NCBI GenBank assembly: GCA_903903985.1
Contig: CAIVAT010000120.1
Location: forward strand, 1 to 64,000
Length of the DNA stretch: 64,000 bases
Source of the DNA: an uncultured Bacteroidales bacterium
GTDB lineage: Bacteria > Bacteroidota > Bacteroidia > Bacteroidales > FEN-979
Direction of reading: 5' to 3'
This document shows positions 19,644 through 54,398 of this stretch, piece by piece; the first letter of the stretch is position 1; each line of letters begins with the position of its first letter. The notes beneath the pieces were generated by a model, which was not told the DNA's origin, searched no databases, and was given only the letters and a program-made list of their open reading frames with translations. The position numbers and the translations under genes were made by a program.

Positions 19644-19918
19644 GAAATTAAGGTTCAATGGTTTTTCAACCGGCTCCAACCTTCCCCTTGCGTTGCCTGT
19701 AGCTTCGGGTTAGCTCGCTCAAGCCCGCTCAAGTTCATTCAGTGTTTCCCGTTCTGAATCATATTCTTCACCGGGGAAGTGCAAAGAATTATCACTCCTT
19801 TTAATTTGAGCCTTCGCGGTGAAATGCCCTGTCTGGAAAACAAGGCATAAACCCTAACATTCAAATCCATTTAACCTAACACATTTTCACCTGTTTCACT
19901 ACCCTGACAATGAGCAGC

Positions 19919-20030
19919 CAGGATGGTTGCATCCTGTTTCAAATATTTATTGAAATTTTACATATTGTATTTCAAATACTTACATGAAAATGTGAAAAAA
20001 TATTCATTTTTTTCAAAACAGGATGCAACC
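19919..20030. repeat. 15-bp inverted repeat with a nested competing hairpin around an A/T-rich core
   Basis: GGTTGCATCCTGTTT (19925-19939) and AAACAGGATGCAACC (20016-20030) are exact inverted copies 76 bases apart. The left arm also takes part in a local hairpin CAGGATG-GTTG-CATCCTG (19919-19936), so the two pairings are mutually exclusive. The core is very A/T rich with repeated TTCAAATA-like words. It lies in the 532-base spacer between tRNA-Ser and the gene at 20132, about 100 bases before that start. No gene is seen in the rest of the spacer. Confidence 0.7.
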
Positions 20031-20131
20031 CTTTGAAAACCCTCCATGTCAATATCAGAAAGAACGGTTGAATAATGTTTTAAACTTCTTTCAGCCTTGA
20101 ATCATTTTCAAATCAGTTAAAACCAGAATCC

Positions 20132-20758: not shown

Positions 20759-20847
20759 TGTGACATGTGACGCATGACACGTTAGGTTTTTCCGGCTTTT
20801 CGCGAAAGCGCTATTCAATAATTATTAACCCTTTAAAAACAATTATT

Positions 20848-21408
20848 ATGACAACAGTTAAGGAAAACTTCATGACAACAGGTTTGTCAGGAATGTACGA
20901 TGACAAGGTCGTTTTCCGTCAGTGGAAAGGCCGTACCGTTTTTGCTAAACCGCCGCGCAGGCAGGAGACTCCGACGCAGAACCAGCTGACCCGCAAAGCG
21001 TTGTTTCTCGATGCGGTGGATTACGCAATGGTGGCGCTTGCTGACCCGGAACTGAAAGAGACCTACCGGAAGATGGCGCCGCTTGGCTTAACGGCATACA
21101 ACATGGCCATTGCCGATTTCCTGGTTGCGCCGAAGGTGATCAGGATTGACACCGGCGGGTATTCCGGTGAACGCGGCAGCGTGATCACCGTGGTGGCCGA
21201 AGACAACTGCAGGGTGAAATCGGTAACGGTGGTCATCGCCGGCGCCGATGGCACCCTCGTGGAAGAGGGCGCTGCGGTGCAGATCGCCCAGGGCCGCGTG
21301 TGGTTTTATACCGCCACTACTGCGAACCCGGTCACTGCAGGTGCCGTGATCACTGCAACGGCAACCGATGTACCGGGACATCATGGAACCGGTTCGGTGA
21401 CAATGTAG
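20848..21408 (+). CDS. Unassigned 186-residue protein, possibly DUF6266-like
   Basis: The N terminus TGLSGMYDDKVVFRQWKGRTVFAK resembles the opening of DUF6266-type proteins (GLSG...G..V...WKG), followed by a helical region (RKALFLDAVDYAMVALADPE, TYRKMAPLGLTAYNMAIADF) and a C-terminal Ig-like beta-sandwich (VITVVAEDNCRVKSVTVVI, AVITATATDVPGHHGTG). No signal peptide. ATG at 20848 is used since the upstream in-frame codons are not protein-like. The family resemblance is from memory and tentative; function unknown. A strong terminator follows after 13 bases. Confidence 0.6.
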   Translation: MTTVKENFMTTGLSGMYDDKVVFRQWKGRTVFAKPPRRQETPTQNQLTRKALFLDAVDYAMVALADPELKETYRKMAPLGLTAYNMAIADFLVAPKVIRIDTGGYSGERGSVITVVAEDNCRVKSVTVVIAGADGTLVEEGAAVQIAQGRVWFYTATTANPVTAGAVITATATDVPGHHGTGSVTM

Positions 21409-38261: not shown

Positions 38262-38900
38262 TTATTCAACGGAATAAAACTGGTTGCGGATAGCCCAGGC
38301 AATCAGGCCGGCAACGTTTCTGACGTCGGCTTTCAGAAACAGATTGGTACGGTGGGTTTCGACCGTTTTACTGGATATATACAGGCGTTCTGAAATTTCC
38401 TGGGAAGTAAATCCCTGGCAGATCAGCACCATGATCTCCATCTCGCGGGTAGTCAGTTCCTCCGTTCCGGTAATTTTTCCATTGTGTCTGAAAGCCAGCT
38501 TCTGCAGGATATCCTGGCTGAAATAGGTACCGCCCTTGTGAACCTCCCGGATGGCCTGTTCCAGCTCGAATTTATTTGCCTTCTTGAGGATGAAACCTTT
38601 TACGCCCGCCTGGATCATCTGGGTATAATGACCGGTGTCGGAGAACATGGTGAGGGCAATAACGTTCAGTTCAGGTTTTACTTTCAGCGCCCGCTCGGTA
38701 GTGAGCGCGCCGCCGATGGCAGGCATTTCAATATCCATCAGCGCAACATCCACTTCCGTTTTTTGAAGTGCCTCCACAAAACGGTTCCCGTCGGAGGTAT
38801 CGTAAACCACTTCGATACCGTCGATCTGGTTTAACACGAGGAGGATGCCCTCACGAAACAGGTTGTGGTCATCGATGATGGCTAGTCTGATATTTTCCAT
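38262..38900 (-). CDS. NarL/FixJ-type response regulator
   Basis: A 212-residue two-component regulator. Receiver domain residues 1-120: acidic pair IIDDHNLF, phospho-acceptor Asp in VALMDIEMP near residue 56, ALTMFSD and FILKKANK with the conserved Lys. The LuxR-type helix-turn-helix covers about 145-205 (LTTREMEIMVLICQGFTSQE, YISSKTVETHRTNLFLK). It should bind DNA as a phosphorylated dimer. The start lies one base after the stop of the histidine kinase gene, so the two are a cognate pair. They end a minus-strand series that starts with the PP2C phosphatase and includes the NRPS, so they could regulate that series. Confidence 0.93.
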   Translation of the reverse strand: MENIRLAIIDDHNLFREGILLVLNQIDGIEVVYDTSDGNRFVEALQKTEVDVALMDIEMPAIGGALTTERALKVKPELNVIALTMFSDTGHYTQMIQAGVKGFILKKANKFELEQAIREVHKGGTYFSQDILQKLAFRHNGKITGTEELTTREMEIMVLICQGFTSQEISERLYISSKTVETHRTNLFLKADVRNVAGLIAWAIRNQFYSVE

Positions 38901-38901
38901 A

Positions 38902-40743
38902 TCAAAGGGGCATTATAATGTTGACTGAAATTCCGGCATTCGGAGAACTTACGACCGAAAATGTTCCTCCGAACGACTCTACTCTGTTGGTGATGTTGGG
39001 TATACCCTGGCCCACCCTTTTCCCCGCTGAAGTGGTGAACCCTTTGCCGTTGTCGGAATACCGGATCGTCAGTTTACCATCACTGCGTCCGATATCCAGG
39101 CTGATCCTTGTGGCTTCCGCATGCTTCAGGGTGTTGTTGATCAGCTCAGTGATACAGCGGTAAACCGCCAGTTCGATTTTTGGATCAAGTCTTTCGTCAA
39201 ATTCCGAGGTAAATAAAATCTCATATTTTTCATTTGCCATCAGCGGTGCCAGTAAATTGTTCAGTGCGGTCATCAACCCGTGTTTTTCCAACACATGGGG
39301 ACTGATATTATGTGAGATCCTGGAAACTTCATCGATTGCTTCGGAAATCACCATCTGCAGCCGGTCTCTGATGACCTCCCTGTTCTCAGGTTTCGCATCA
39401 AGAAAAGCCTGGAAATAATGGTTAATAGCCGAAAGAACGGGCCCGAGTCCATCGTGAAGGTCACGGGCAATGCGCCTTCGTTCATTGTTTTCGGTTTCCA
39501 CCACCGCCTCGATCAGCTTTTGCTTCAGGGCCCCCTGCCGTCTCAACCTGAAATAGAACAAACTGAAAACAAAGGCAAGGGTGAGTGTGATGGTGATGAT
39601 GATCAGCAGAATGATCTGGCGATGGTTAAATTCATTCTTTTTCTGCTCCTCCCTGATCTTTTGTTCCTTGACAAACAGGTCGTACCTGGCCGATTGCTCA
39701 AGTATCTGGTTATTCATCCTGTCTTTGTAGAATGCACTCAGCAAAATGTTGCACAGGCTCAGAAACCCGTATGCATCCTTGAAATTGCCGGTTGCTGAAT
39801 ACACATTGGCATATTGCTGATAGATACGCATGTAGAGATTACGGTTCTCCCATAAAGGCGAAAGCCGGGTCGCCTCCTCCAGAGAACCGAGCGCAGCATG
39901 GTAATCCTTTTTCCTGCCATACACGATGCTCAGATTGATCAGCGAATTCATCGCCTGGAAAGGCATCCCGGCTGTAAGGAAATTGGATACCGATTGCCGC
40001 GACAGATCAAAAGCTTTATCGTATTTCCTGCTCCGGATATACTGATAGCTCAGTTCATTCTGGGACGCGGCCAGGTTGCGTTTGTCGCCGGTCCTCGCGG
40101 AGAGTTCCATGCAAAGCAGGGAATATTTAAAAACAGAGTCGCGATAACTCTTTGCCGGATTTTCCGATTCGTTGTAAAGGGCCGCCAGGCGATTCCAGGC
40201 ATAGGCATGGTTCTCGTCGGAAAGGGGCGAAGGGCGTTCCAACAGGTCGTAGATCAGGCTGATCCCTTTGTGGTATTCCTGTTTCTGACGATATGCCTCG
40301 CAAAGTTCAATCTTGACGTGGTCCGCATCTGCCGTATTTCCCGGGAGAATCTCAATAGCCCGCAGCAGCACCCTGATCGCATTGTCGGGCATGGACCGCT
40401 CAAGGTACCATCGCGCACAGTATTGCAGGGAGTCAGGATGGTTGAGCGAATCAGGAACATCTGGCTGCGTATTCCGGTGAACAGAGGCCCCGGCATTCAC
40501 AACTTCATTGATTCTCATTTGCAGGTAACTGAGCCATGCGTGCTGTACCATTGTAAGTTCATCACCGGATGCAGAAAGCGTTTTAAGACATCTGACGGAA
40601 GTGCTGACATCGGTCGCCAGACTGCCCAGGGCCTTGTTATACACAGAATCAAACTTTGATTGAAAACTCTTTTCCTGACCGAAAAGCATCGTGGTCAGCA
40701 AAATTGCCAGGAGCGTTGCAACGGTCTTGCGAGGTCTTTTCAA
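38902..40743 (-). CDS. TPR-containing NarX-type sensor histidine kinase
   Basis: A 613-residue membrane kinase: signal peptide (1-23), an extracytoplasmic tetratricopeptide-type helical domain (about 60-350; SYQYIRSRKYDKAFDLSRQS, KDYHAALGSLEEATRL), one transmembrane segment near 376-398, a HisKA_3 dimerisation domain with the phospho-His in ARDLHDGLG near residue 427, and an HATPase domain (ELINNTLKHAEATRISL, YSDNGKGF, GQGIPNITNRVESFGG). The start codon is TTG; no in-frame ATG would keep the signal peptide. TPR sensors of this kind are common in Bacteroidota. It pairs with the regulator that begins one base downstream. The signal is unknown. Confidence 0.92.
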   Translation of the reverse strand: MKRPRKTVATLLAILLTTMLFGQEKSFQSKFDSVYNKALGSLATDVSTSVRCLKTLSASGDELTMVQHAWLSYLQMRINEVVNAGASVHRNTQPDVPDSLNHPDSLQYCARWYLERSMPDNAIRVLLRAIEILPGNTADADHVKIELCEAYRQKQEYHKGISLIYDLLERPSPLSDENHAYAWNRLAALYNESENPAKSYRDSVFKYSLLCMELSARTGDKRNLAASQNELSYQYIRSRKYDKAFDLSRQSVSNFLTAGMPFQAMNSLINLSIVYGRKKDYHAALGSLEEATRLSPLWENRNLYMRIYQQYANVYSATGNFKDAYGFLSLCNILLSAFYKDRMNNQILEQSARYDLFVKEQKIREEQKKNEFNHRQIILLIIITITLTLAFVFSLFYFRLRRQGALKQKLIEAVVETENNERRRIARDLHDGLGPVLSAINHYFQAFLDAKPENREVIRDRLQMVISEAIDEVSRISHNISPHVLEKHGLMTALNNLLAPLMANEKYEILFTSEFDERLDPKIELAVYRCITELINNTLKHAEATRISLDIGRSDGKLTIRYSDNGKGFTTSAGKRVGQGIPNITNRVESFGGTFSVVSSPNAGISVNIIMPL

Positions 40744-40822: not shown

Positions 40823-43660
40823 TCAGAACCCGTCTTTAATAACTTTTCTTACCACCACATCATTCCCGCATTCAATTACCAGGTAGTAAACGCCGGTCGG
40901 AAGATCACCCATCTGAATGGATAAATGTTGTTTTCCGGGATAAATGGTTCTGTCAGGATACTGTTTAACCATTTTTCCTGAAGTACCGTAAAGTTTAGCC
41001 TGGATCCGGGAGGCTTTTGCTGAAACCAATTCCATCCGGGCCTCCTCTTTTACAGGGTTGGGAAAGACATTACCCATCTGGAATGACGGAATACCCTTCG
41101 ATACTTCAATACCCGCCGCAGGATTGAAGTATGCACTGTAAACCCCGTTCCCATGGGTTCCGATGGCGATAAATCCGTCGGTTTGGCGGGCATCGATGTC
41201 ATCGATGATGACATTTCCGATGGTGGAGGCTCCCTCTTTTACCCAGATTGTTGAGTCTCCGTTAAGTTCACGTGTGGAGAACAACCCGCAGGAGGTACCG
41301 GCAAATATGATTTTTTTACCCTGGAGCATCAACTTTTTGGTACAGCGGATGGAGGGTCCGTTCCCCGAACCGTCGGGGAACTCTTCCAGGTTTCCTCCAA
41401 CAGTCGTCCAGGTGGAACCACCATCAGTTGAATGGAAGAGACTCTGAACTCCATAGTTTGAAAATGTTACCATCACGTGGTCTGCATTATCCGGATCGAT
41501 GTCGATAAAAGCAACAAAAGCATTGACGGGAAAATCATTTCCCGTTATATTTACCGGTACAGGATTCCCTGTATGGGCATTATCCAGGCGGTAAACTTTC
41601 CCAAGGTTGGTTCCATAGTATAACCGGTTTGCCGGCACTTTTGAAAGGGCAAGGAAACTTATTTCAGATGCGCTGCCGACATCTACATTGCTCAGGTGGC
41701 TCCACCCCGCATTGCGCATGCCGGTGTCGAACGCCGCAGCCTTCATGTTGTCTTTTCGCCAGATGCTGGTAACAGTGGGCAAATAAAACGTCTGGTAGTT
41801 GTTCGGATCCAGTGCAATATTCTGGTAAAACGGAAAAAGAGAGTTGAAGCCCATCACCGGGTCGACATATTTCAGCAGCGTATCGGGAAGCTGCGGGAAG
41901 ATGTCTGTTGTATGCATGTTGTTGTCAAACCTTGATGTCCAAATGTTTCCACTGTAGGCCGAGATGACGCAGAATTCCCAGCCCGGCGCAACGCAGGAAG
42001 CGAACCCGTCGTAACAGATGTCAATGTTGAACCAGAATTCTGCAGGATTATCGGTGACGGTATAATACCAGTTGTTGTCCTGCAGCCCACCGAGGATCCA
42101 ATCGTCCCCCTGTGAACCGTGATCGATTGCAACGCTGTAAAACTGGGTGGTGGTCAGCTTTTTATTCGTCCGTTGCCAAACCGACTGACTGCTGTCGGCC
42201 AGGCAATTGCTGGTCAGGTATATGCCGCCGTCATTCGCCATCAGCATCTTCGACGGGTCGGAGGGAAAGAAGGTGATTCCATGCTGGTCGGGATGAAGTT
42301 GATGAAGCGAGTCCATATCATATGGATACCCGCCGATATAGGTGGTCGCCAGGCTGTCGGCAAACCCGTTTTCTGACCGGTGCAGGTTCATCCCGCCCAG
42401 GAATACCACATTTTCATCGTCAGGTTTGACTCCCATGGTAAAACAGTACCCGCCATAAACAACGAATGAAAACGGGAAACTGCTGGTGTTCCCGTTCCCC
42501 GCTCCCGGGATGCCGTTGGTCCGGTTTTCCCATGAAGCGTTCCCTGCTGCCGGATCCCAGGTCATTTTCCAGAAGGTGTTCACCGAATTGGAATATCCTC
42601 CGAATGGGTTGATGTCGGAAGATTGCGATTCGGTAAAAACATACATGACATTTTCATTCGATGGCGCCAGGGCAAGACGGGTAACCCGGTTATCCTGCGG
42701 GAAGCCCGCCGGAGTGATCTGAACCCAGTCAACTCCGTTCGTCGATCTCCATATACCAGCCTTGCCGGGAGGCTGAACCGAAAAGCAGAAACTGCTGAGC
42801 GCAGCATAAATAACGCCATCGGAGGTAATGGCCAGGTCGGTGGCAAAGGATTTATTTACGAGGTCTCCGAGTACCACCTCCCAGCTCTTTCCTCCGTCCT
42901 CCGATCGCATGATGGCGCCATAACATGCGGCATAAACAATGTCTTTGTCCATCCTCACGGGGTCAGTTACAATTCGCCACACTCCCTGGAAAATTTCCTG
43001 AAGATGGGCTGGGGATCCTCCCTGGGTGTATGCAAGCGGTTGCCAGCTTGAACCGTTGTCGGTCGACTTGAATATGCCATTGCCGATCCCGATTGTCCTT
43101 GCATTGGTGCTGATGTTCCGGTCAGTGGTGCTGAGCAGTTCACCGGTGCCATAATACCAGGTTTGATGTTTTCCCGGCCGTTTGTCCTGCACGAGGCAGG
43201 TGACGCTTTGCTCGGCATCAGGACTGGTGGTTTTGTGCCAGATTTGGCCGGGCTCCGATGTTTCCCACATCCCTCCTGAGGCGCTTCCTGCCAAAAGGTG
43301 TTTCTCATCGTCCACATCAATGGCAATGCATAGCATGCGGCCGCCGATGTTGGTCGGTCCGCGCCAGTTCCATGCCTGGCCGCCGCTTTCAGGATATGCC
43401 GGCATCCCGGCAGTAAATGCGAGTTCCCTGGCACGTATTCCCGGGGGAATTTCCCCGGTTGCCGGATCTTTTAGTTTCCTGAACTGGAGGTCTGCCTGCA
43501 TGGCCAGCAGTGTGGTTTTAGGCGTTTTTTTATGTTCCGCACGAGAAACGGGACCGGTGTCTGCACCAAATGATGGTGATGAATCATGATGGCACAGGAA
43601 GGAAAATGCAAGAACTGTGAATCCTGCAAAAAATTGGAGAAGAATGTTTTTTTTGATCAT
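40823..43660 (-). CDS. Large secreted beta-propeller protein with T9SS domain (second copy)
   Basis: A 945-residue paralogue of the protein at 25727. Signal peptide (1-22), then propeller blades with Asp-box-like turns (SGGMWETSEPGQIW, GNGIFKSTDNGSSW, MRSEDGGKSW, LFHSTDGGSTW) and a C-terminal T9SS domain (FQMGNVFPNPVKEEARMEL to VVRKVIKDG). Shares long near-identical stretches with its paralogue, for example around KHQTWYYGTGELLSTTDR. No active-site residues are evident. It lies 39 bases after the NRPS stop and 79 bases before the kinase start on the same strand, so it probably belongs to the NRPS transcription unit, as an exported partner of unknown role. Confidence 0.85.
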   Translation of the reverse strand: MIKKNILLQFFAGFTVLAFSFLCHHDSSPSFGADTGPVSRAEHKKTPKTTLLAMQADLQFRKLKDPATGEIPPGIRARELAFTAGMPAYPESGGQAWNWRGPTNIGGRMLCIAIDVDDEKHLLAGSASGGMWETSEPGQIWHKTTSPDAEQSVTCLVQDKRPGKHQTWYYGTGELLSTTDRNISTNARTIGIGNGIFKSTDNGSSWQPLAYTQGGSPAHLQEIFQGVWRIVTDPVRMDKDIVYAACYGAIMRSEDGGKSWEVVLGDLVNKSFATDLAITSDGVIYAALSSFCFSVQPPGKAGIWRSTNGVDWVQITPAGFPQDNRVTRLALAPSNENVMYVFTESQSSDINPFGGYSNSVNTFWKMTWDPAAGNASWENRTNGIPGAGNGNTSSFPFSFVVYGGYCFTMGVKPDDENVVFLGGMNLHRSENGFADSLATTYIGGYPYDMDSLHQLHPDQHGITFFPSDPSKMLMANDGGIYLTSNCLADSSQSVWQRTNKKLTTTQFYSVAIDHGSQGDDWILGGLQDNNWYYTVTDNPAEFWFNIDICYDGFASCVAPGWEFCVISAYSGNIWTSRFDNNMHTTDIFPQLPDTLLKYVDPVMGFNSLFPFYQNIALDPNNYQTFYLPTVTSIWRKDNMKAAAFDTGMRNAGWSHLSNVDVGSASEISFLALSKVPANRLYYGTNLGKVYRLDNAHTGNPVPVNITGNDFPVNAFVAFIDIDPDNADHVMVTFSNYGVQSLFHSTDGGSTWTTVGGNLEEFPDGSGNGPSIRCTKKLMLQGKKIIFAGTSCGLFSTRELNGDSTIWVKEGASTIGNVIIDDIDARQTDGFIAIGTHGNGVYSAYFNPAAGIEVSKGIPSFQMGNVFPNPVKEEARMELVSAKASRIQAKLYGTSGKMVKQYPDRTIYPGKQHLSIQMGDLPTGVYYLVIECGNDVVVRKVIKDGF

Positions 43661-43699: not shown

Positions 43700-46600
43700 C
43701 TAAATGTTGACAAACAGTCCCTGAAGGCCCGTTTTTCTCTGAATCATCGCCCGGATGAAAGCATGATTGATCTTCTCCTCCCTGGCAAGAAATTTGAAGA
43801 AAGCATCCCGGTTGAAGCTGTAAAGCGTAACATCGCCAAGAACAGCATCTGCATTCACCGAGGAAATGTTATCCTCCAGGAGGCTTTCTTCGCCAAAAAA
43901 GTCGTTCTTTCCAAGTATGCCAACAGTACCAAGCCATCCCAGTGCCGAATGCTTGCTGATTTCAATATTTCCGTTTTTCACAAAATATATTTTGTCGTTC
44001 AGGCTCCCTTCCCAAAGAAAATTCGTTTCCTCCTCGGCATAAACGGGCAAGGTTAAAGCTGAAATACTATAGAGTGTTTGTTCATCCAGGCCCTTGAAAA
44101 TACTGATGCTGTTGAAAAAGTCAGTCCGGTCTTTGATGGCACGGGCGATAAATGGCTGCATTTTTCCAGGGTTGAACCGGGGCCACACAAAGCCGAGCCT
44201 TTCCAGGATGGCAAGTGTTTTTTCGCAGGTGTAAAGAACCTGCGTGCTTTCAGCCGAAAGCGCCTGCTCATCAAAAGAAATAAGCCCAGTGTGAAGCAGG
44301 TAGTTTTGAATGTAAGCCCTTGCACCCGCCCTGCCATGATTTAAAATAATAAAATCAATGAACTCCGGAAATTTTACGCTTTTGATGTTAAGTGAATAGT
44401 CGGTCGTTGCAAGAACATCGGAAATTTTCACATGATTTGGGTTGAACAAGTGAAAATTCTGGTTCTGAAGTTCCTTTGTGAACATCAATTTGATGATTGA
44501 TTTTGCAAGCTGGTCGGCAAAAGAAAGATCAAATTTGTCATATTTTTCCGGAACGATGCCAAGGTTGATAAAACTCCGTACCTGCTGGAAAAAACCATTG
44601 TCTTCGATGTTCTTCTGGATAGCGCCCGATATCGTATCGAAGGTGATGTTGCCAACCCGGTATATGTTTATATGGGTGCCTTCCTTTCTGGCAAGATCGA
44701 TTTTTTTCTCGGCATCAAATTTAGTTTCCACATAGATGTTGGGATATTTTTGCCCGATATCCATATCCGTTTCAGTAAAAAGTGCCTGTTTTTTCCCGTC
44801 AATCTGACCCATGCCGACAGACATGGTTGAAACATGATGAAAATCTTTTTTCTTTCCATCATTTGAAAATTGAATAAGGTTTAATACGGATTGCACATTG
44901 GTTGCATAAAACTCTTCGTAAATCCCATAATGTTTTGTGTTCGCTGCCGGATTCAGCACTGCATCGACCGTTAGTGAAAGTTCCCTGTACCTGGCGGCAT
45001 CGAGCCCCAGCTTATCAGCAGAAAGATCCCCGCTGAGAACGGCAAACCTGCCCGGGAACTGTGCGAGAAATTTATCGCCAAAATAGTGGTTCATGGTGGC
45101 AATCACTCTTTGCCTCGCCTCCTCCGGATTTTTTGCACGTACAATCAGGGTGATCTTTGATGAAGTCTCTCTTAATAGCTCATAAAGCAGGTACGCGCCA
45201 AGATAGCCGGTACTTCCCGAAAGCAAAATATGCTGGTAATTTTGTTTTTCCCTGAAATCTTTCCTGCTGATTTCCTTTGCTTTTTCCCTGTAGGCTTCGA
45301 GTTGATCTTTGACCGCTTTTTCTTTAAATTCAAACACTTCTCCTTCCATCGGGGCAGGCATAATGTCTTCTGCAATATCGATGGTTTTTAAAATTTCGAG
45401 TTGACTGATGCCTTTTTGTTTTTTCTGTTTGAGGTTTGCAGCAAGTTCAGAAATGGTTGGAAATTTGAAAATGTCGTTGACCACTGCTTCAAAATCCTTT
45501 TCAAGTTCACAAGAAAGCGACACCGCGTTTAATGAATCACCCCCGAGGTCAAAGAAATTATCCTTTGTACTGATCCTGTCCACTTCCAGCACTTTGCGCC
45601 ATGCCCTGAGGATGATCTCCTCTGCCTGGTTTGCACTTGCTACAAGTTCGGTACCTGTTTCAATGGATTCCTTTTCATTGGGAAGCTTTGTCTTATCCGC
45701 TTTGCCATTCGCATTCAGTGGAATTTCATCAAGCATTACAAAATATGACGGGATCATATAATCGGGCAGGTCCTTTGCCAGGAATTGCCGGAGTTCACCT
45801 ACCGGTATTGCCTCTTTCGATACATAATAAGCAACCAGGTAATTTTCGTTGCTTTCGTTTTTCTTGGCAATGACTATGACTTTTTTGATCTTTTCATTTT
45901 TCAGGAGCTGATTTTCAATTTCGCCAAGCTCAAGCCTGAAGCCACGGATCTTGACCTGGAAATCGATCCTTCCGAGATATTCCATTTCTCCGCTGGAAAG
46001 GCGTTTTGCAAGGTCACCCGACCGGTACATTCTTTCACCCGGGATGTAGGGGTTTTGCGGAAACCTTTCTTTGGTAAGATCTTCTCTTCCCAGATAACCT
46101 CTTGCCAGCCCGTCTCCGGCAACGCAGATTTCGCCGGGGATTCCAACCGGCAGGATTTTTTGAGCCGGATCCATGATATAGGTCCTGAGGGTCGGAATCG
46201 GGAACCCGATATTGCTTATGTTATTGTCAATTTCATAGTCTGTAATGTTTTTAAAGGTCACATGTACGCAGGTTTCCGTTATCCCGTACATGTTGATGAG
46301 CTTTGTTTCGGGATACTTTTTATGCCATTCTTTCAAAAGCGCCGGCTTAAGGGCTTCTCCGCCAAAAGTAACGTAGCGCAAAGCAAGATCATGGTCAGTG
46401 GTTTTGAGATCCTCTGCAATGAAGTTATAAAAGGCGCCCGGGGTCTGGCTCAGCACGGTAATTTTTTCCTTTTTGGCAAGTTTGACAAACTCCGCAGGAT
46501 TAAGGATGATATCTTTCGGAACCATGAGCAATTTCCCTCCATAAAGAAGCGCTCCGTAAATTTCCCATACCGAAAAATCAAAGCAGTACGAATGGAACAT

Positions 46601-49600
46601 CGACCAGGTATCAAGTTCGGAAACATCATACTGGAATTTGCTGTTGATCATCAGCCTCACCACATTGTAATGTTCCAGGATGACTCCTTTGGGCTTACCG
46701 GTCGAACCGGAGGTATAAATGATATAGATGCCGTCCTTCGGGGAGTTGACATTTTGAACCGGTTCACCGCTGCCTTCGTAATTTTTTGCATCCAGGGCAT
46801 CAACTATCTCGCCGTCGAACGTATCGACAACGTCAAAATGGTTTGCGGATGTAACAAGATGCTTTACACCACTGTCTTTGAGCATGAATTCAATCCGGTC
46901 TTTTGGAAAATCCGGCTTCAGCGGGAGGTAGATACCGCCGGCTTTCAATATGGCCATCATGCCGATGATCATTTCAGGGGAAACATCGAGCAGCATGGCA
47001 ACGATCGTTTCCCGTCCAACCTGCTTCCTTCTTAAATGCTGCGCCAGCAGGTTCGATTTTTCATCCAGTTCCCGGTATGTGAGTGACTTGTTCAGGTATG
47101 AAACAGCGATCCTGTCAGGGAATTTTTGTGCAATTTCAGAGAACACCTGGTGGACGGTTTTGTCAACCGGATAGTCCGCTTCCGTGGCATTAAAAGAATA
47201 GAGCAGTGCCTTCTGTTCCAGTTCGGAAATGATCTCGATGTCTCGGAGCTTTATATCCGGGTTTGCTGCAACAACATCCAGGATGTTCCTGAAATGGGTT
47301 GCCATTCGTTCAATGGTTTCCTGTTTAAACAAGCTCGTGCGGTATTCCCAGCGGGTTTCAATATAATTGCCTTTCTCGACAATTTCAAGCAACTGGTCGA
47401 AACGGGCAATCTTTGTGAGATGCATCAATGGTTTTATGGTGATATCGCCTGCACGAAGCTCAGGGAAGCCCATGCTCTGAAAAACCATCCCGATATTAAA
47501 GATCGGATTGCGGCTCATGTCCCTTTTGGGGGCTACCTTTTTGACAATTTCCTCGAACTGGAAATCCTGGTTGTCGAAAACATCCAGCAGGTTGTCCCTT
47601 ATTTCTCCAAGGAACATCCGGAAGGTTTTTTCTCCCTGTGGCTTTGATCTGAAAGGCAGGGTGTTTACGAACATCCCGATCAGATGCTCGGTGTCCAGGT
47701 GATTTCTCCCGGATGCGCCCATTCCGGTGATGATGTCTTCCGACTGGCAATATTTTGAAACAAATACATGGTAAGCTGCACTCATGAGCATGTTGAGCGT
47801 CATGTTGTTTGCAGAGGCACAGTCATGCAGCCTTTGCGTAAGGTCTTCATCCAGTTTGAAAAACAAACTGTCGCCCCGGTAATCAATGATCGGGGGCCTG
47901 ATGAAGTCCGACGGAAGATCGGTAACAGGCAGTTCCCCGGCAAGCGATTCCAGCCAGAATTGCTCCTGTTTTTTTATTTCAGGCGAACTCATGAGTCTCT
48001 TTTGCCAGATTGCAAAGTCTTTGTACTGAATAAAAAGCTCCCTGGGCGTTTCATTATTATAAAGCCTGACGATCTCATTGAGAAGCACCACCATGGAGCT
48101 GCCATCATAAACAGCATGATGAATATCCCAGAAAAGAACATGCTTCTCCTGCGAAACCCTGATCAGCGCCACCCTGAACAGGGGTGCTTTTTTAAGATCA
48201 AAGGGTTTGACCAGTCCATCAATAAAATCGTCGAGTTCCGACTCCTTTACTTCGTAATAATTGCGTTTGACCCTGACATCTTCATGAATGATCTGCACGA
48301 CCTCGTTATCAACAAGGTCCAGCGTGGTGCGCAAGGCTTCATGCCTGTTGATGATCGTTTCAACGATGTTACCAAGTTTGACGGTATCCAGTGGCCCCAG
48401 GATCTCAAATTTGTTCGGAACATTATAGGCGGTAAGAGCGCCTTCGAACTTTTCAACCAGGAAAAACCTTTTTTGAGCGGAAGTGGCAGGATAGTATTTG
48501 ACGGGCGCTGCCGTTTCAATTTTTTCATGAGAGAGCTTTCCCTCCTTTTCTATCATCTGTGCAATTTCCCGGATGGTCGGAAATTTGAAAAAGTTTTTAA
48601 AAGATACCGCAATCGAGAACTCCTCTTCAATTTTTGACAGCACAAGGGTTGCAGACAGCGAGTCGCCTCCAATGTTAAAAAAGCTGTCGGCAATGCTTAC
48701 GGTTTTCAGACCAAGAACTTCCTTCCAGATATCCGCGATTTTATCTTCGATGGCGTTTGAGGGAGCGACAATATCAGAATTTTCCTGAATTTCAGGCAAT
48801 GCCTTCCTGTCTATTTTGCCGCTCGCATTCAGCGGCATGTTTTCAAGCTGCATGAAAAACGCAGGAATCATGTAAGCGGGCAGGCTTGCGGATAGAAATT
48901 CTTTTACTTTGCCGACATCCAGTTTTTCCCCGGCAATAAAAAACGCCACAAGGTATTTTTCCTCGTTGGCCGAGGTCCTGTCGATGACAATTGTTTCCTT
49001 GATTTGGCCGTGTTTCAGTAACTGGTTTTCGATCTCTCCAATCTCAATCCTGAACCCCCTGATTTTTACCTGGAAATCAATCCTTCCCAGAAACTCAATG
49101 TTCCCATCGTTCAGCCATCTCACCAGGTCGCCCGAGTGGTACATTCTTCCACCTGCATTGAATGGATCGGCAACAAAGGACTTATCCGTTTTCTCTTTGT
49201 CTTTAAAATAACCCCGGCCCACACCCGCTCCGCTGATGCATAATTCACCGGGTATTCCAACCGGCATCAGGTTTTGATGCGCATCCAGCACGTAGGTTTT
49301 AAAGTTGTGAATCGGCTTCCCGATGGGAATATTGTCGTAAGACCTGTCAACCTCATAAACAGTGGATATAATTGAACATTCCGTGGGTCCGTAAACGTTA
49401 AGCAACCGGTATGGTCGCTTTTTGAAATATTTAAGCTTGTCACCGCCTGTCAGGAGCCAGCGCAGGGAACGATTCTCTTCAAACTCCATGAACTGTTCTG
49501 CAAACTGGGTTGGTAGAAATGAAACGGTGATGTTGTTTGCATTGAAATACTCATTGACCATTTTTGGCGAAAAGCGCATTTCAGGCGCTATGATGTGTAA

Positions 49601-51583
49601 CGAGGCCCCCGACACCAGGGGAGGAAATACTTCGATCATGCTTGCATCAAAAGCATATCCCGCGTACTTGGTGAACCGGTCCTTATCTGTAACACCCAGA
49701 ATGTCGTTCATGCAGTGCACAAAATTCGCGAGATTGCCATGTTCGATCATCACCCCTTTCGGTTTCCCGGTTGACCCTGAAGTATAGATCACATAGCACA
49801 GGTCCGACATTTCGTTTGTCCCCGGAGGGTTGTCTTTTCTGCCATCATACATGGAGGGGCCAGTAATATCTGCAAAGAGTCCCTTTTCGGAAATCTTTTC
49901 TGCAAGGTTACCTGCGGAAAAAACAAACTTTGAACCGCTTTCCTTCACGATATAATTGATGCGGTCATCCGGGTAAGCCGGGTCGATCGGAATGTATGCG
50001 GCTCCCGACTTTAAAATCCCAAATATGCCGGTGATCATTTCAATTCTCTGATCCATGAGAATGGAAACAATATCCCCCTTACCAACCCCTTTATCTTTCA
50101 GGAACCAGGCAAGGGCATTGGCTTTTTCATTAAATTCACCATAGGTGATCTGCTTGTTTTCCGAAACGACCGCAATATTCCCGGGGTTTTTTGCAGCCTG
50201 TTCCTCCAATAAATCCACGACGGTTTTGGCTGTATCATAAGGATATCCGGTTTTGTTAAAATCCTGAAGAATCTGCTCTTTTTCCCAATCAGACGCTAGA
50301 GGCAGGTTGGATACAGGATTGTCCGGAAATTTCAGCAGGGTTTCCAGGATTGACATCAGGTTAGAAGAAATCCGTGAAATATCCTCTTCAAGGTACATTC
50401 CCTCAGGATGTGTAAGGATAAATTCGTACAGGTTATATCGTTTGATGATATTGATAATCAAATGATAGGGCGGCTGCTCGCAGAGGGGGTGATGGTATGT
50501 GCCGTCGGTACCTTCGAACGTAAAATCCTGGCCAACGACAATGATATTTAAAAGATTCGGAACCGTTTTATACTTTTTCCTCAGGTCGTTTGCAAGAAAC
50601 CCGTAAGGATACCTGGAGTGTTTCTTAAGGATAAATTTCAGTTCACCTGAGACTTCCTTTGCAAATTCATTGAATTTACTGTCGGCCCGCACGGTCATCC
50701 TGAGCGGAAAAACATTTGCAAACATGCCAAAAGTCTGCTTTTCACGGTCAGATCTTCTGTTGTGGGTCAGTACCCCGACCACCACCTCCTCATTCCTGGT
50801 CACCTTTGACAAATATGCAAGGATCGAACTCACTATGAAATTATTGGCGCTGATCCCTTCTCTGGCCGAATGGGCAAGGATGCCTTCGGTAAGTTCCTTT
50901 GAAAAAGCAACATGATGTTCCCTGGCTTTAATGCCTGAGGTTTTCGACCTGATATACGGAAGAACAACTTCCGGGGGCAGTTCGGCATACTTTTCCTCCC
51001 AGAATTTTTTGTCCTTCAGGAAGTCTTCACTTTTCAGATAGGTTTCTTCCGTTGTCAGGTATTCAAGATAGGAGGGAGCCGGTTCAAGGTTGATTGATTC
51101 TTTATTCTTTAATCGCGAATAGTGGGAAGCGATCTCTTCAATGATCATCTTCATGCACGCGCCATCGCCGATTATGTGGTGGCAGTTGATATAAAAACCG
51201 TCCTGTTGATCAGGAAACCGGATGAGGGCAACATAAAAAAGGTCGGAGTCAACAAGTTTGAAGGGTTTCTGTTTCTCTTTATTGAGCCAGCCTTCATACT
51301 TTTCTTTTGCGACCTCGGTGGAAAAGTCAAAAAAATCAAATTTTAACACGTCATGAAGCGATATATATTGCTTGAATGAATGATCTTCCTGGGTTACCCT
51401 TAATCTGAGGCCGTCGTGCCGGCCTATCGCAAGGTTGATGGCTTTTTCCAGCAGATTAAAATCAATGCCTTTTCCCATCTTTACAATAAAAGGCATATTG
51501 GCAAACCCTGTACCCGGGTAAAGATTTTCGGTGATGAGCTCCCTTTTCTGCGGCTCAGAAAATTTATATTTCGTCATGTTCAT
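43700..51583 (-). CDS. Dimodular NRPS: C-A-PCP-C-A-PCP-thioester reductase with a fused cyclic-nucleotide-binding-like domain
   Basis: A 2627-residue non-ribosomal peptide synthetase. In order: C1 (HHIIGDG near 137), A1 (YTSGSTGKPKG near 601), PCP1 (GGDSL near 974), C2 (HHAVYDG near 1154), A2 (YTSGSTGKPKG near 1626), PCP2 (GGDSL near 2014), a reductive release domain with NAD(P)H loop GSTGYLG near 2121 and catalytic YVETK near 2283, then from about 2490 a CAP_ED-like domain (GDVTLYSFNRDAF, FFGEESLLEDN). Ten-residue codes read by eye: A1 D-A-I-F-L-G-V-I-I-K (aliphatic), A2 D-F-W-S-T-G-M-V-H-K (threonine-like). A C domain at the very N terminus suggests an acyl starter. Predicted product: N-acylated aliphatic-Thr aldehyde or alcohol. 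The ATG at 51583 is preferred to a TTG at 51604. No MbtH or PPTase gene lies nearby. Confidence 0.95.
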   Translation of the reverse strand: MNMTKYKFSEPQKRELITENLYPGTGFANMPFIVKMGKGIDFNLLEKAINLAIGRHDGLRLRVTQEDHSFKQYISLHDVLKFDFFDFSTEVAKEKYEGWLNKEKQKPFKLVDSDLFYVALIRFPDQQDGFYINCHHIIGDGACMKMIIEEIASHYSRLKNKESINLEPAPSYLEYLTTEETYLKSEDFLKDKKFWEEKYAELPPEVVLPYIRSKTSGIKAREHHVAFSKELTEGILAHSAREGISANNFIVSSILAYLSKVTRNEEVVVGVLTHNRRSDREKQTFGMFANVFPLRMTVRADSKFNEFAKEVSGELKFILKKHSRYPYGFLANDLRKKYKTVPNLLNIIVVGQDFTFEGTDGTYHHPLCEQPPYHLIINIIKRYNLYEFILTHPEGMYLEEDISRISSNLMSILETLLKFPDNPVSNLPLASDWEKEQILQDFNKTGYPYDTAKTVVDLLEEQAAKNPGNIAVVSENKQITYGEFNEKANALAWFLKDKGVGKGDIVSILMDQRIEMITGIFGILKSGAAYIPIDPAYPDDRINYIVKESGSKFVFSAGNLAEKISEKGLFADITGPSMYDGRKDNPPGTNEMSDLCYVIYTSGSTGKPKGVMIEHGNLANFVHCMNDILGVTDKDRFTKYAGYAFDASMIEVFPPLVSGASLHIIAPEMRFSPKMVNEYFNANNITVSFLPTQFAEQFMEFEENRSLRWLLTGGDKLKYFKKRPYRLLNVYGPTECSIISTVYEVDRSYDNIPIGKPIHNFKTYVLDAHQNLMPVGIPGELCISGAGVGRGYFKDKEKTDKSFVADPFNAGGRMYHSGDLVRWLNDGNIEFLGRIDFQVKIRGFRIEIGEIENQLLKHGQIKETIVIDRTSANEEKYLVAFFIAGEKLDVGKVKEFLSASLPAYMIPAFFMQLENMPLNASGKIDRKALPEIQENSDIVAPSNAIEDKIADIWKEVLGLKTVSIADSFFNIGGDSLSATLVLSKIEEEFSIAVSFKNFFKFPTIREIAQMIEKEGKLSHEKIETAAPVKYYPATSAQKRFFLVEKFEGALTAYNVPNKFEILGPLDTVKLGNIVETIINRHEALRTTLDLVDNEVVQIIHEDVRVKRNYYEVKESELDDFIDGLVKPFDLKKAPLFRVALIRVSQEKHVLFWDIHHAVYDGSSMVVLLNEIVRLYNNETPRELFIQYKDFAIWQKRLMSSPEIKKQEQFWLESLAGELPVTDLPSDFIRPPIIDYRGDSLFFKLDEDLTQRLHDCASANNMTLNMLMSAAYHVFVSKYCQSEDIITGMGASGRNHLDTEHLIGMFVNTLPFRSKPQGEKTFRMFLGEIRDNLLDVFDNQDFQFEEIVKKVAPKRDMSRNPIFNIGMVFQSMGFPELRAGDITIKPLMHLTKIARFDQLLEIVEKGNYIETRWEYRTSLFKQETIERMATHFRNILDVVAANPDIKLRDIEIISELEQKALLYSFNATEADYPVDKTVHQVFSEIAQKFPDRIAVSYLNKSLTYRELDEKSNLLAQHLRRKQVGRETIVAMLLDVSPEMIIGMMAILKAGGIYLPLKPDFPKDRIEFMLKDSGVKHLVTSANHFDVVDTFDGEIVDALDAKNYEGSGEPVQNVNSPKDGIYIIYTSGSTGKPKGVILEHYNVVRLMINSKFQYDVSELDTWSMFHSYCFDFSVWEIYGALLYGGKLLMVPKDIILNPAEFVKLAKKEKITVLSQTPGAFYNFIAEDLKTTDHDLALRYVTFGGEALKPALLKEWHKKYPETKLINMYGITETCVHVTFKNITDYEIDNNISNIGFPIPTLRTYIMDPAQKILPVGIPGEICVAGDGLARGYLGREDLTKERFPQNPYIPGERMYRSGDLAKRLSSGEMEYLGRIDFQVKIRGFRLELGEIENQLLKNEKIKKVIVIAKKNESNENYLVAYYVSKEAIPVGELRQFLAKDLPDYMIPSYFVMLDEIPLNANGKADKTKLPNEKESIETGTELVASANQAEEIILRAWRKVLEVDRISTKDNFFDLGGDSLNAVSLSCELEKDFEAVVNDIFKFPTISELAANLKQKKQKGISQLEILKTIDIAEDIMPAPMEGEVFEFKEKAVKDQLEAYREKAKEISRKDFREKQNYQHILLSGSTGYLGAYLLYELLRETSSKITLIVRAKNPEEARQRVIATMNHYFGDKFLAQFPGRFAVLSGDLSADKLGLDAARYRELSLTVDAVLNPAANTKHYGIYEEFYATNVQSVLNLIQFSNDGKKKDFHHVSTMSVGMGQIDGKKQALFTETDMDIGQKYPNIYVETKFDAEKKIDLARKEGTHINIYRVGNITFDTISGAIQKNIEDNGFFQQVRSFINLGIVPEKYDKFDLSFADQLAKSIIKLMFTKELQNQNFHLFNPNHVKISDVLATTDYSLNIKSVKFPEFIDFIILNHGRAGARAYIQNYLLHTGLISFDEQALSAESTQVLYTCEKTLAILERLGFVWPRFNPGKMQPFIARAIKDRTDFFNSISIFKGLDEQTLYSISALTLPVYAEEETNFLWEGSLNDKIYFVKNGNIEISKHSALGWLGTVGILGKNDFFGEESLLEDNISSVNADAVLGDVTLYSFNRDAFFKFLAREEKINHAFIRAMIQRKTGLQGLFVNI

Positions 51584-51652
51584 AATAAATGTGTTATCCG
51601 GCAATTAAAATAAATGGTTCATATTTGAAGTCAATCATAAGCAATGAAGGTC

Positions 51653-51994
51653 CTATTTTCCCATTAAAAATGAAACGCCTTCTTCAAATGTAGGAAAAAC
51701 AGCAATGATGGTGTCGAACCCGCTGATACGGAAAACTTCTTTCACAGATTCATTCAGGGAGGAAAGCGCCAGGCTTTTCTCTTTTTTCTTTGCTTCTTTG
51801 GCAAGGAGCAGCAACGACCGCAGGCCGGCACTGCTTATGCATTCAAGTTTTTCACAATCAAGCAGTAGCCGCTGCCCGGATTGCTGGATCAATATAATAA
51901 GTTCTTTTTCAAATCCATCTGCAGTCGAAATGTCCAGCCTTCCTTCGGCATGAATGACGAGCACTTCCCCGGTGTTTTCTGTTGATATTTTCAT
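51653..51994 (-). CDS. STAS-domain protein (anti-anti-sigma type)
   Basis: A 113-residue single STAS domain. VLVIHAEGRLDISTADGFEK covers the first strands and helix, and LLLDCEKLECISSAGLRSLL contains the phosphorylatable Ser (Ile-Ser-Ser-Ala-Gly, near residue 58). In partner-switching systems such a protein is phosphorylated by an RsbW/SpoIIAB-type kinase and dephosphorylated by a PP2C phosphatase. The phosphatase is encoded 73 bases upstream and the NRPS 48 bases downstream, all on one strand. No kinase or sigma factor is in the window, so the target is unknown; it could be a sigma factor elsewhere or the assembly line itself. Confidence 0.92.
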   Translation of the reverse strand: MKISTENTGEVLVIHAEGRLDISTADGFEKELIILIQQSGQRLLLDCEKLECISSAGLRSLLLLAKEAKKKEKSLALSSLNESVKEVFRISGFDTIIAVFPTFEEGVSFLMGK

Positions 51995-52067
51995 GGTTGT
52001 TGGTTTTGTTTTAATTCGTATTTATGGTGGTTTGCGAATAGGTCAGAATAACTCCGTGAAAGCATTT

Positions 52068-54068
52068 TCATGTGTACCCGATGGTCTCTGCAGGCGTGGT
52101 CAGCTCTTTTGAAATTTGTTTTCTGAGCACCTGTATGGCAAGCACACTGATGTCGTCAGACTGTTCAGTTCCGCGCGAAAATTCATGGACATCATCAACA
52201 ATACTTCGGATGATTTCACAGGGAGCATGGTTCTCGTTTTTACACAGCATCTCTCCGATTCTTTTGATGGAATATTGTTGATTTTCAATGTTGAATGCCT
52301 CGCTGATGCCGTCGGTATATAAAAAGAGCGTATCGCCGGCGTCCAATTGAACCGCATACCGGTTCATGTCCGAATCCATGTCAATGCCAAGGGGAATGCA
52401 GTGGGTATTATCCAGCTCAATGACGGCACCGGTGTTTTTAATGATGAAGGGGTAATTATGGCCGGCATTGACATATTCCACCTCTCCGGTTGAAGTATCC
52501 AAAACACCTATAAACATCGTCACGAACAGATTGCTCTCATTGTTCCTGCAGAGGTAATTATTCATCAGCTGAACGGCCCTGCTTACATTCAGCCCTGCAA
52601 TTTGTGTTGCGGCCCGCATGATCGTAGTGGTTATTGCCATGAACAAGGCTGCGGGTGTTCCTTTTCCGGAAACATCGCCGATCGCAAAGCACAGGTGTTC
52701 GTCATCAGTGAAGTAAAAATCATAAAAATCGCCGCCGACCTCTCTGGCAGGTTCAATAAATCCGTAAATATCGAATTCTTTTCTGCCGGGGAAAGCAGGA
52801 AATTTTCCCGGGATCATCCCCATCTGAATATCGTGTGCAATTTTAAGTTCGCTTTCGATTTTTTCTTTTGCAATGGTCGTCTTCCTGAGATTGTTTATAT
52901 AAAGGATAAGCTCTTCTTTCATCCTGGAGAATGCATCTGAAAGCTGGGCGATCTCATCCCTGGCATGGGAAACCGGGATGTTTGTGTTGAAGTCGCCTTG
53001 CCCGATGAGGCGGGTCGCATCCACAAGTCGTTTGATCGGCAAGGTGAAATTCCTGGTAATTACCACAGAGATAATGATCATGGCCAGCAGGCTCAGGCTG
53101 AAAATGAGGGCAAGTTTTTTAAGAAATATATATAACCCGGAGTAGAGTTCCTTTGTTGGAAAGGTGAGTGCAAAGATCCATCTGGTCAGCGGCTCGGGTG
53201 CGAAATAGACCCGGCCGGATACTTTTTTCCCTCCGAAATCATTGATTTTCACGAAGAGCCGCTCTCCATTCAGCATTTTTTCGATGGTTTTAAAAGCCAG
53301 TGGATCTTCGTTTTTATCAAAGAAGCTGTGAATGTCCTTGTAAATGTATTCCTTACGCGGATAGGTAATGAATTTCCCGCCATGAGAAACCAGGAAACCG
53401 AAACCGGTTTGGAACAATCTTGCCGATTTTACGATCCGGTTGAAATTTCCGAGGGAAACATCCATGGTAATGACCCCTGCAAAGGTTCTTTCCCCTTTGA
53501 TTTTCCTGAAAAAAGGCATGGAATAGGTGCACATCAGTGTGTCGCCTCCCCCTTTATCGTAATAAGGTTCAGACCACACCGGTTTCCCAAGCATTTTAGG
53601 GATCCGGTACCAATCCTTTGAAAAATAATCGTATTCGGGAGAAGCAAGGTCTTTCAGAACGATCCCGTTATGTGTTTCATAAATGTAACGACAATGCCGG
53701 TATTGCTTTGCATCACACATATAGGGTTCAAAAGCCAGGGCGCATCCAAAAACAGCTGAGTCTTTCCCGACAAAAGCTTTTGCAATTTCCAGGAGGTTGT
53801 TATAATCCGGCTTCCCTGATCCAAGGGTGGTTGCAAGTGCCAGCGGGAATTGCTCAATCGGCCTTATTGCATTGGTGATCCGCGAAATGGTGAGATCGGT
53901 TATATTTGAAGCCCGCTGCATGGCATCATTATCCAGGATTTGCACGGTAAATTCAAGGGTATAAAAAAATGCCGTGGTGAAAATGAAAAGGATGGCCGAA
54001 ATAAAGAAAAGGCTGTATCGCAAGGTGAGCCCTCCCTTTTTGAATGCAGTTGTGATTTTACTGTCCAT
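52068..54068 (-). CDS. Membrane Cache-HAMP-PP2C (RsbU/SpoIIE-type) phosphatase
   Basis: A 666-residue protein: transmembrane helix near 17-40, an extracytoplasmic dCache domain (about 50-295; SPEYDYFSKDWYRIPKMLGK, WSEPYYD, GVITMDVSLGNFNRIV), a second transmembrane helix near 315-337, HAMP (VTRNFTLPIKRLVDATRLIG near 337-390), a short coiled coil, and a SpoIIE-type PP2C domain (about 420-660) with metal-binding Asp residues in REVGGDFYDFYFTDD, IGDVSGKGTPAALFMA, NAGHNYP, LFLYTDGISEAFN and QSDDISVLAI. It should sense a small ligand outside and dephosphorylate the STAS protein encoded next. The ATG at 54068 starts the first helix. It is the first gene of the NRPS series. Confidence 0.92.
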   Translation of the reverse strand: MDSKITTAFKKGGLTLRYSLFFISAILFIFTTAFFYTLEFTVQILDNDAMQRASNITDLTISRITNAIRPIEQFPLALATTLGSGKPDYNNLLEIAKAFVGKDSAVFGCALAFEPYMCDAKQYRHCRYIYETHNGIVLKDLASPEYDYFSKDWYRIPKMLGKPVWSEPYYDKGGGDTLMCTYSMPFFRKIKGERTFAGVITMDVSLGNFNRIVKSARLFQTGFGFLVSHGGKFITYPRKEYIYKDIHSFFDKNEDPLAFKTIEKMLNGERLFVKINDFGGKKVSGRVYFAPEPLTRWIFALTFPTKELYSGLYIFLKKLALIFSLSLLAMIIISVVITRNFTLPIKRLVDATRLIGQGDFNTNIPVSHARDEIAQLSDAFSRMKEELILYINNLRKTTIAKEKIESELKIAHDIQMGMIPGKFPAFPGRKEFDIYGFIEPAREVGGDFYDFYFTDDEHLCFAIGDVSGKGTPAALFMAITTTIMRAATQIAGLNVSRAVQLMNNYLCRNNESNLFVTMFIGVLDTSTGEVEYVNAGHNYPFIIKNTGAVIELDNTHCIPLGIDMDSDMNRYAVQLDAGDTLFLYTDGISEAFNIENQQYSIKRIGEMLCKNENHAPCEIIRSIVDDVHEFSRGTEQSDDISVLAIQVLRKQISKELTTPAETIGYT

Positions 54069-54398
54069 GGTCAAACAGTGTAAAGTCGATGGTTTGGAAT
54101 AACCATCGGATCTGGCAGATCCGGGAAACAATACCGGCAATTAAAAAAGTAAAAGTAAGGAAGAATGTTGACTTTTATAAAAAAAAACTTATGCATCGTT
54201 CACAAAAATCAAATCTGCTGAAAGGCAGAAAAAATATCCATGGATGATGCTGAAAATCCAGGCATTACAATTATTGAACGTGCCATGAATATCAATGGGT
54301 TCAGAGAAATAAAAGCTGAATGATCCTTGACACCAACGGATCATTGTCATATGGTTATCCGAAACATAAATCAGGTTTCGCAACAGTTTATAATCTCT
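54069..54398. other. 330-base spacer without a visible gene
   Basis: A/T-rich sequence between the phosphatase start and the stop of the minus-strand metallophosphoesterase gene. It must hold the promoter of the PP2C-STAS-NRPS series, but I see no TTTG-N19-TAnnTTTG match. Confidence 0.4.

Follow-up and report, generated by a model that had tools for sequence, protein, structure and literature searches.

A reductase-terminated peptide synthetase with a CNB-like tail beside a sensory SpoIIE/STAS pair in an uncultured Bacteroidales bacterium

The stretch of DNA analysed here (64,000 nucleotides, positions 1 to 64,000 of contig CAIVAT010000120.1, assembly GCA_903903985.1; hereafter the window) comes from an uncultured Bacteroidales bacterium and carries on its minus strand, one after the other, the genes of a sensory PP2C phosphatase (dCache-HAMP-SpoIIE), of a STAS protein and of a non-ribosomal peptide synthetase (NRPS) ending in a thioester reductase (R) followed by a domain of the cyclic-nucleotide-binding (CNB) superfamily. 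That sensory PP2C/STAS pairs recur beside NRPSs ending in R is supported: in a survey of the window's order, STAS/SpoIIE genes were found in 6 of 14 R-NRPS regions and in none of 30 regions of NRPSs without R (Fisher p 4e-4), the regions being of varying lengths, some ended by contig ends, and those from one genome being counted apart. We propose that a reductive-release dipeptide NRPS is placed under a partner-switching phospho-circuit and bears a CNB-like auxiliary domain, a reading to which we give an even chance; the link between the circuit and the NRPS rests on gene neighbourhood.

The SpoIIAA/SpoIIAB/SpoIIE and RsbV/RsbW/RsbU systems of Bacillus are partner-switching circuits made of a PP2C phosphatase, a STAS protein and a HATPase kinase. 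The window locus is similar in its PP2C phosphatase and STAS phospho-acceptor, and the HATPase kinase is also present in clusters of relatives. From the observed domains, gene order, motifs and recurrence we infer a course of events in which an outside ligand at the dCache domain would set the activity of the PP2C, as its architecture suggests, and the PP2C, to judge from the intact motifs, would dephosphorylate the conserved Ser of the STAS protein. An RsbW-type kinase, presumably encoded elsewhere in the genome, would reverse this step, and the phosphorylation state of the STAS protein would decide the expression or activity of the NRPS and, in other genomes, of its exporter.

The window locus

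The features of the locus are as follows:
52068 to 54068, minus strand: sensory PP2C phosphatase, dCache (PDC)-HAMP-SpoIIE (Pfam; PP2C motifs)
51653 to 51994, minus strand: single-domain STAS protein, SpoIIAA/RsbV type (Pfam, 70.8 bits; alignment)
43700 to 51604, minus strand: NRPS of 2634 amino acids, with condensation (C), adenylation (A) and peptidyl carrier (T, or PCP) domains in the order C-A-T-C-A-T-R-CNB (Pfam)
50267 to 51574, minus strand: first condensation domain, HHxxxDG seen by eye (translation)
48551 to 48745, minus strand: first PCP (T) domain, residues 954-1018 (Pfam)
47201 to 48496, minus strand: second condensation domain (domain annotation)
46091 to 47140, minus strand: second adenylation domain, residues 1489-1838 (Pfam)
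44495 to 45223, minus strand: terminal thioester reductase, NAD_binding_4 (Pfam, alignment, fold match)
43781 to 44023, minus strand: core of the CNB (cNMP_binding/CAP_ED) domain (Pfam, profile, single sequence, fold)
40823 to 43660, minus strand: protein sorted by the type IX secretion system (T9SS), 39 bases behind the NRPS; its BNR/sortilin matches are below threshold
38902 to 40743, minus strand: TPR histidine kinase of the same gene run (Pfam)
38262 to 38900, minus strand: LuxR-type response regulator of the same gene run (Pfam)

These six genes follow one another in the same orientation between 54068 and 38262 on the minus strand and are separated by 73, 48, 39, 79 and 1 bases in this order; if the NRPS is taken to start at its first ATG in frame, the STAS-NRPS gap becomes 69 bases. 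An earlier note on this DNA, made from the sequence alone, had described the Cache-HAMP-PP2C, STAS and C-A-PCP-C-A-PCP-reductase genes on one strand, and the Pfam annotation and the first two gaps bear it out. The SpoIIE gene is taken to start at 54068, where residue 25 of the longer frame is an ATG; an upstream TTG would lengthen it to 54140. On the longer frame (52068-54140, minus strand) Pfam found SpoIIE (167 bits), MCP-like_PDC/dCache and HAMP, and no C-terminal kinase domain; the catalytic motifs GGDFYD, GDVSGKG, YTDGISE and QSDDIS are all present in the alignment, in which the STAS protein keeps its phospho-acceptor Ser region, ISSAG.

In the NRPS, Pfam recognised two Condensation, two AMP-binding and two PP-binding domains, NAD_binding_4 (160 bits) and cNMP_binding, so that by its domains, namely C, A and T with a terminal NAD_binding_4, it is of the reductive-release type, in agreement with the fold match of R. 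Since the condensation HHxxxDG and, by eye in the translation, the GxxGxxG and S/T-Y-K residues of the reductase are readable, it is plausible that the enzyme is active. Moreover, since it begins with a condensation domain, an N-acyl dipeptide aldehyde or alcohol is suggested as its predicted product. The adenylation codes, as read by eye, are DAIFLGVIIK for the first domain, which we take to be aliphatic-like, and DFWSTGMVHK for the second, presumably Thr-like.

Recurrence of switch genes beside reductase-terminated NRPSs

For the order survey, condensation domains were searched in 393 genomes, 32 of which were positive at E 1e-20, and 44 regions were compared, 40 from this search together with the window and the loci L103, L044 and L045 (L, locus; G, genome). 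Some of the SpoIIE queries included a HATPase part, and thus the "SpoIIE" match of L172 comes for the most part from HATPase, the only one of the two that Pfam assigns at this locus, a SpoIIE tail being seen by eye, and the region was counted as positive through its STAS gene. Genome G711 was counted as negative, though it has STAS and SpoIIE-HATPase genes some 6 kb past the NRPS (L212). The gene orders at the loci with the closest association, including L070 with a CNB-bearing NRPS (genome G786, titled Clostridia bacterium) and L209 from another genome of the order of G786, where a full stop marks a fusion, are:
L160: MATE.HATPase_c_2 - NRPS - dCache-SpoIIE-HATPase - STAS - phosphopantetheinyl transferase (PPTase)
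L159: NRPS - STAS - SpoIIE.HATPase - PPTase
L172: HATPase (cut) - STAS - porin-like gene - NRPS - MATE - PPTase
L209: PPTase - NRPS - MATE.HATPase_c_2 - STAS - SpoIIE - HATPase
L070: HATPase - NRPS-CNB - PPTase - two SpoIIE genes

The gaps in the tight clusters (L160, L209, L159, L070) are between -74 and +120 bases, those of L209 between -29 and +2 bases, and at L070 the RsbW-type HATPase gene overlaps the start of the NRPS. The fusion of a MATE transporter to an RsbW-type HATPase_c_2 domain was observed twice, in the window's order (L160:13634-15412) and, in another phylum, in the order of G786 (Clostridia; L209:4496-6259), both beside an NRPS. In G656 there are five HATPase_c_2 matches, and the two over the cut-off are both in the NRPS cluster.

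The window's own assembly (87% complete, 3.8% contamination) holds a second NRPS, on contig C14 (L103:1-7421), in the order SpoIIE - HATPase - STAS - NRPS. Its SpoIIE gene is cut by the contig end and lies in two overlapping frames, its HATPase gene is in two frames, and its NRPS ends inside a reductase at the contig end; parts of the contig match contigs of G462 at 90% and 96% identity, and it may be mis-binned.

Could the neighbourhood be due to chance? For the association as a whole this was rejected: SpoIIE matches number 2-10 per genome (nine genomes), and the survey separates R from non-R NRPSs. In the tree of R domains the carriers fall in three places, which means that more than one NRPS line shows the association: the window, L070 and L090 lie in the branch with CNB, while a branch of 7 rows (100/99) holds L160, L209 and L159, and one of 3 rows (100/99), flagged for long-branch attraction, holds L150 and L168. 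The tree skipped 8 loci as duplicates or fragments and dropped 8 proteins as fragments, L172 and L103 among them, and the program warned that long branches meet at L168, L150, L165 and L182.

Same-family searches found only the source itself for the MATE-kinase protein (1 of 7 genomes) and for the reductase end of L172 (1 of 15), so that these clusters are patchy. L209 is the only one of 10 further R loci examined in the order of G786 with a switch-gene match. None was found at the 11 genome-contig loci without CNB (L068, L069, L071-L077, L079, L080) or at the 5 f19 loci examined (L177-L181; 15 f19 genomes were listed). Among lone reductase-like genes outside NRPSs, a fragment of SpoIIE lies at the very end of the stretch fetched for L190, and the SpoIIE match at L191 is weak.

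Such a neighbourhood has a printed precedent, since Leahy et al. (2010; PMC2812497) describe one in an archaeon: in Methanobrevibacter ruminantium M1, the passages on these genes give the two-module NRPS mru0068 as neighbours two serine phosphatases, a MatE exporter and an antagonist of an anti-sigma factor, a neighbourhood similar to those reported here. The main text of that paper gives mru0068 a terminal thioesterase, while the legend of its Figure S8 names a thioester reductase domain; in a third cluster a PPTase stands with an anti-sigma kinase, an antagonist and a serine phosphatase, and the authors proposed sensing, regulation and export. The locus differs in belonging to an archaeon, and neither a CNB domain nor a kinase-exporter fusion is mentioned in those passages. 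What is added here is the spread of the association, its bias to R, the exporter-kinase fusion and the CNB family.

A possibly older SpoIIE-STAS locus and the proposed output of the switch

STAS matches in general are common in the order (199 of 393 genomes at E 1e-5); the subfamily of the window's STAS is present in 6 of the 393 (E at most 5.2e-32; next 7.4e-20). Among these six genomes, four have an R-NRPS, compared with 10 of the 387 others (p 1.5e-5, in a test made after seeing the data and on a hand-compiled list of 14 R-NRPS genomes, from which G554, with an R fragment and no condensation match, was left out). The window's T9SS protein has homologues of 70-75% identity close to SpoIIE-STAS in G462, G751 and G688. 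In G462 (L150) the T9SS homologue, SpoIIE and STAS are consecutive, with 21 bases between the first two; the end of an NRPS block lies 5.4 kb away on the opposite strand. In G711 an NRPS block with a GMC oxidoreductase, a PPTase and an MFS transporter lies between genes that adjoin in G688. The SpoIIE-STAS locus thus exists also without an NRPS, and NRPSs of two kinds came to lie by it; the pattern of the STAS subfamily would agree with recruitment under a switch that was already there, or with a site prone to insertions. As a separate observation, the neighbourhood of the G711 NRPS (L212:9358-10779, L168:4388-5623) includes an aldehyde dehydrogenase and the GMC oxidoreductase, which could act on a reductase product.

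Several points weigh against control of the NRPS by the adjacent switch. In G751 (L216) and G688 (L218) the SpoIIE(-HATPase)-STAS genes stand near the T9SS-protein homologue with no NRPS match in the 14 and 12 kb examined, respectively, and since these genomes keep SpoIIE-STAS with no NRPS beside it, the NRPS of the window may have landed in an older locus. Eight of the 14 R-NRPS survey regions, some of them cut by contig ends, are without switch genes, and STAS was not found at L070 or L090. Pfam found no RsbW-type HATPase kinase gene adjoining the window genes; among the 14 HATPase_c_2 matches in the window's assembly, the best candidates are on C81 (fused to SpoIIE) and on C14 (broken frame). 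A single transcript is not assured either, because the strand of the run has promoter-like sites between the STAS and NRPS genes (51634-51607) and about the junction of the NRPS and T9SS genes (43683-43656), in a scan that gave 28 such sites against 21.9 expected. On this strand, terminator-like sites were found in none of the gaps and once behind the run (38234-38218), and the pattern scan would be compatible with one transcript or with several.

It could be, then, that SpoIIE-STAS of the window regulates something else, such as the T9SS-sorted protein or another process, and that the NRPS genes were inserted at a tolerant site. The T9SS homologues near SpoIIE-STAS in genomes without an NRPS there, their close spacing in G462 and the position of the G711 block argue for this, and for the window taken by itself insertion beside an old SpoIIE-STAS locus is possible. 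Overall we consider this explanation rather unlikely: it leaves unexplained the switch genes that overlap or abut NRPS, PPTase and exporter genes at L160, L209, L159 and L070, as well as the MATE-kinase fusions, and it has to face two different NRPS types near one STAS subfamily and the excess of R-NRPSs in the genomes of that subfamily, with the reserve on the test given above.

If the switch does act on the NRPS, its output may be the classical one, in which a sigma factor is freed to transcribe the NRPS operon. Such an output falls within the partner-switching control proposed here, as one form of it, and does not compete with it; we regard it as quite possible, though short of even. The SpoIIE/HATPase/STAS set is the classical anti-sigma circuit. 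The authors of the M. ruminantium study, in the passages cited, proposed regulation of NRPS expression (PMC2812497). Against it, the window differs from the Bacillus circuits in having an NRPS as neighbour, no adjacent kinase and no sigma-family match above the cut-off in ten proteins around the NRPS, the rest of the genome not having been searched; two sub-threshold Sigma70_r4 matches near the NRPS coincide with the LuxR-type HTH. Moreover, with kinase domains fused to MATE exporters at L160 and L209, the output may lie at the exporter or the assembly line rather than at a sigma factor. Along this line we tentatively advance, as an idea that we hold to be unlikely in its entirety, that RsbW-type kinase domains, some of them MATE-fused, and STAS proteins would act post-translationally on NRPS activity or export upon an outside ligand, in Bacteroidales and Clostridia and perhaps in archaea, and that in one widespread branch of NRPSs the CNB-like tail of the reductase would serve for docking or as an allosteric site.

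Control of assembly lines is mostly described at the level of transcription, and indigoidine is a known product of an NRPS. In Vogesella indigofera, a response regulator with a predicted RsbW-like domain (TciK/TciR) affects indigoidine production; according to the passages on this system it differs in its REC-RsbW architecture, and the species is stated to lack an RsbV homologue (PMC12826045). The same source describes in Vibrio fischeri a kinase/phosphatase control of a STAS protein (SypE/SypA) with post-transcriptional output; there, as far as those passages go, the output is biofilm and no NRPS is involved. A literature search, itself partial, so that further precedents are possible, found nothing joining an NRPS with CNB and reductase, with SpoIIE and STAS, or with partner switching. 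NRPS clusters of different phyla that come with phosphatase, kinase and STAS genes of their own, two of them with an exporter-kinase fusion, make switch control of peptide production directly testable, and we suggest that the right ligand or a locked STAS protein could turn on silent clusters.

The CNB tail and its family

The C-terminal domain of the NRPS belongs to the CNB (cNMP_binding/CAP_ED) superfamily. As the earlier note had supposed, the residues behind the reductase score as this fold by four routes. Pfam gave cNMP_binding at E 1.7e-10 (41.1 bits; cut-off 27.5). A profile of 11 family members matched 184 distinct sequences of the PDB, the best 60 of which are PKG, PKA, CRP/FNR and other CNB proteins, and the window's domain alone, as a stretch of 106 residues, had 19 PDB matches. 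The predicted structure of the last 205 residues (mean predicted local distance difference test, pLDDT, 78) matched CNB domains with E down to 3e-12; in a model of R and CNB together (pLDDT 82), reductase domains of NRPSs and polyketide synthases rank first among the fold matches. A misannotation of the CNB domain was ruled out by these profile and fold matches. The reductase of the aureusimine cluster (4f6c) and an archaeal T-R didomain (6vtj/6vtz) share the R fold, and the CNB tail is not in these structures.

With PKG, PKA and CRP the tail shares fold and profile; it differs in being attached to a reductase and in its degraded signature. In the phosphate-binding cassette of the window, Gly-Glu is kept and Arg is not at the aligned position, so that the Glu and Arg pair of a cyclic-nucleotide receptor is incomplete. 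Of the 11 family members aligned, 2 have the cassette Glu, and what the family conserves instead is ExSxxGWxGT. Hence a cAMP/cGMP switch is not supported by the sequence of the window NRPS. That the domain is a true cyclic-nucleotide receptor gating reductive release, as the clear fold, the nature of its best PDB relatives and the Glu kept in the window might suggest, appears to us very improbable in the light of this signature, and an auxiliary tail of the reductase, be it a structural, docking or non-cNMP allosteric module, is more likely. Several relatives have a basic residue near the site of the cassette Arg, and they may bind a ligand. Of the earlier proposal, that an outside ligand and possibly a nucleotide signal control peptide making or release, the recurrent neighbourhood of a sensory PP2C/STAS pair and an R-NRPS is thus supported, and a control of release by a nucleotide is not.

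The family of NRPSs ending in R-CNB counts 14 distinct proteins in 10 genomes, so that the architecture looked for by the earlier note does recur; some of the loci are cut by contig ends. SpoIIE adjoins three of the 14 (the window, L070 and, as a convergent dCache-HAMP-SpoIIE gene, L090), and STAS adjoins only that of the window. Switch genes are thus not absent everywhere, nor are they fixed partners of the CNB domain. The view of CNB and partner switch as one device is not supported by these counts, and the partner-switch NRPSs of L159, L160 and L209 are without CNB. The other two Bacteroidota members (L044, L045) have an MFS gene and a PPTase nearby instead. At L063 a HATPase_c_2-GNAT fusion (19616-21127) was noticed 8 kb downstream of the CNB-NRPS, near an AMP-binding/PP-binding/acyltransferase protein and with no SpoIIE/STAS match.

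Where labelled, the carriers are Bacteroidetes, Bacteroidales, UBP16, ADurb.Bin243, JPNA_metabat.86, Bacillota, Desulfobacteraceae, Clostridia and Candidatus Wallbacteria. Of 395 genomes sampled across the phylum, the window's own was the one with a match across R and CNB; in its order, 3 of 393 genomes gave such a match. An alignment-based scan of genome contigs gave 21 loci, 10 of them covering the query through the CNB end, and a search of six host genomes for more R-CNB copies found some in three. In the order of G786, a related reductase (E 1e-60 or better) is present in 10 of 196 genomes, and only the match of G786 reaches through CNB. Plasmid records gave 113 matches, none covering 80% of the query, and a scan of viral contigs nothing useful. 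In the partial literature search no description of the R-CNB combination in an NRPS was found; in the passages seen, CNB proteins are named beside geosmin synthase (PMC4558948), and CNB appears only as a Pfam family entry (PMC10663231).

The architecture is not an accident of assembly, because the 13 further proteins have no stop in the R-CNB stretch, some being cut by contig ends upstream of R. The 14 CNB rows of the R tree lie inside one 24-row branch (support 92/94), and since this branch also holds 10 rows without CNB, its sequences may reflect a gain followed by losses or several gains. The alignment of a second NRPS of UBA6123 reaches only profile position 458, where the protein ends. 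At L060 (11759-19387) the frame of a tandem second NRPS ends at the start of CNB, which suggests a loss of the domain. In L045 (10159-11342) the first condensation domain of the G446 NRPS is in two frames, by assembly error or decay. Finally, much longer NRPSs, of more than 4000 amino acids, also terminate in R-CNB at L088 (5868-19901) and L089 (3437-15886).

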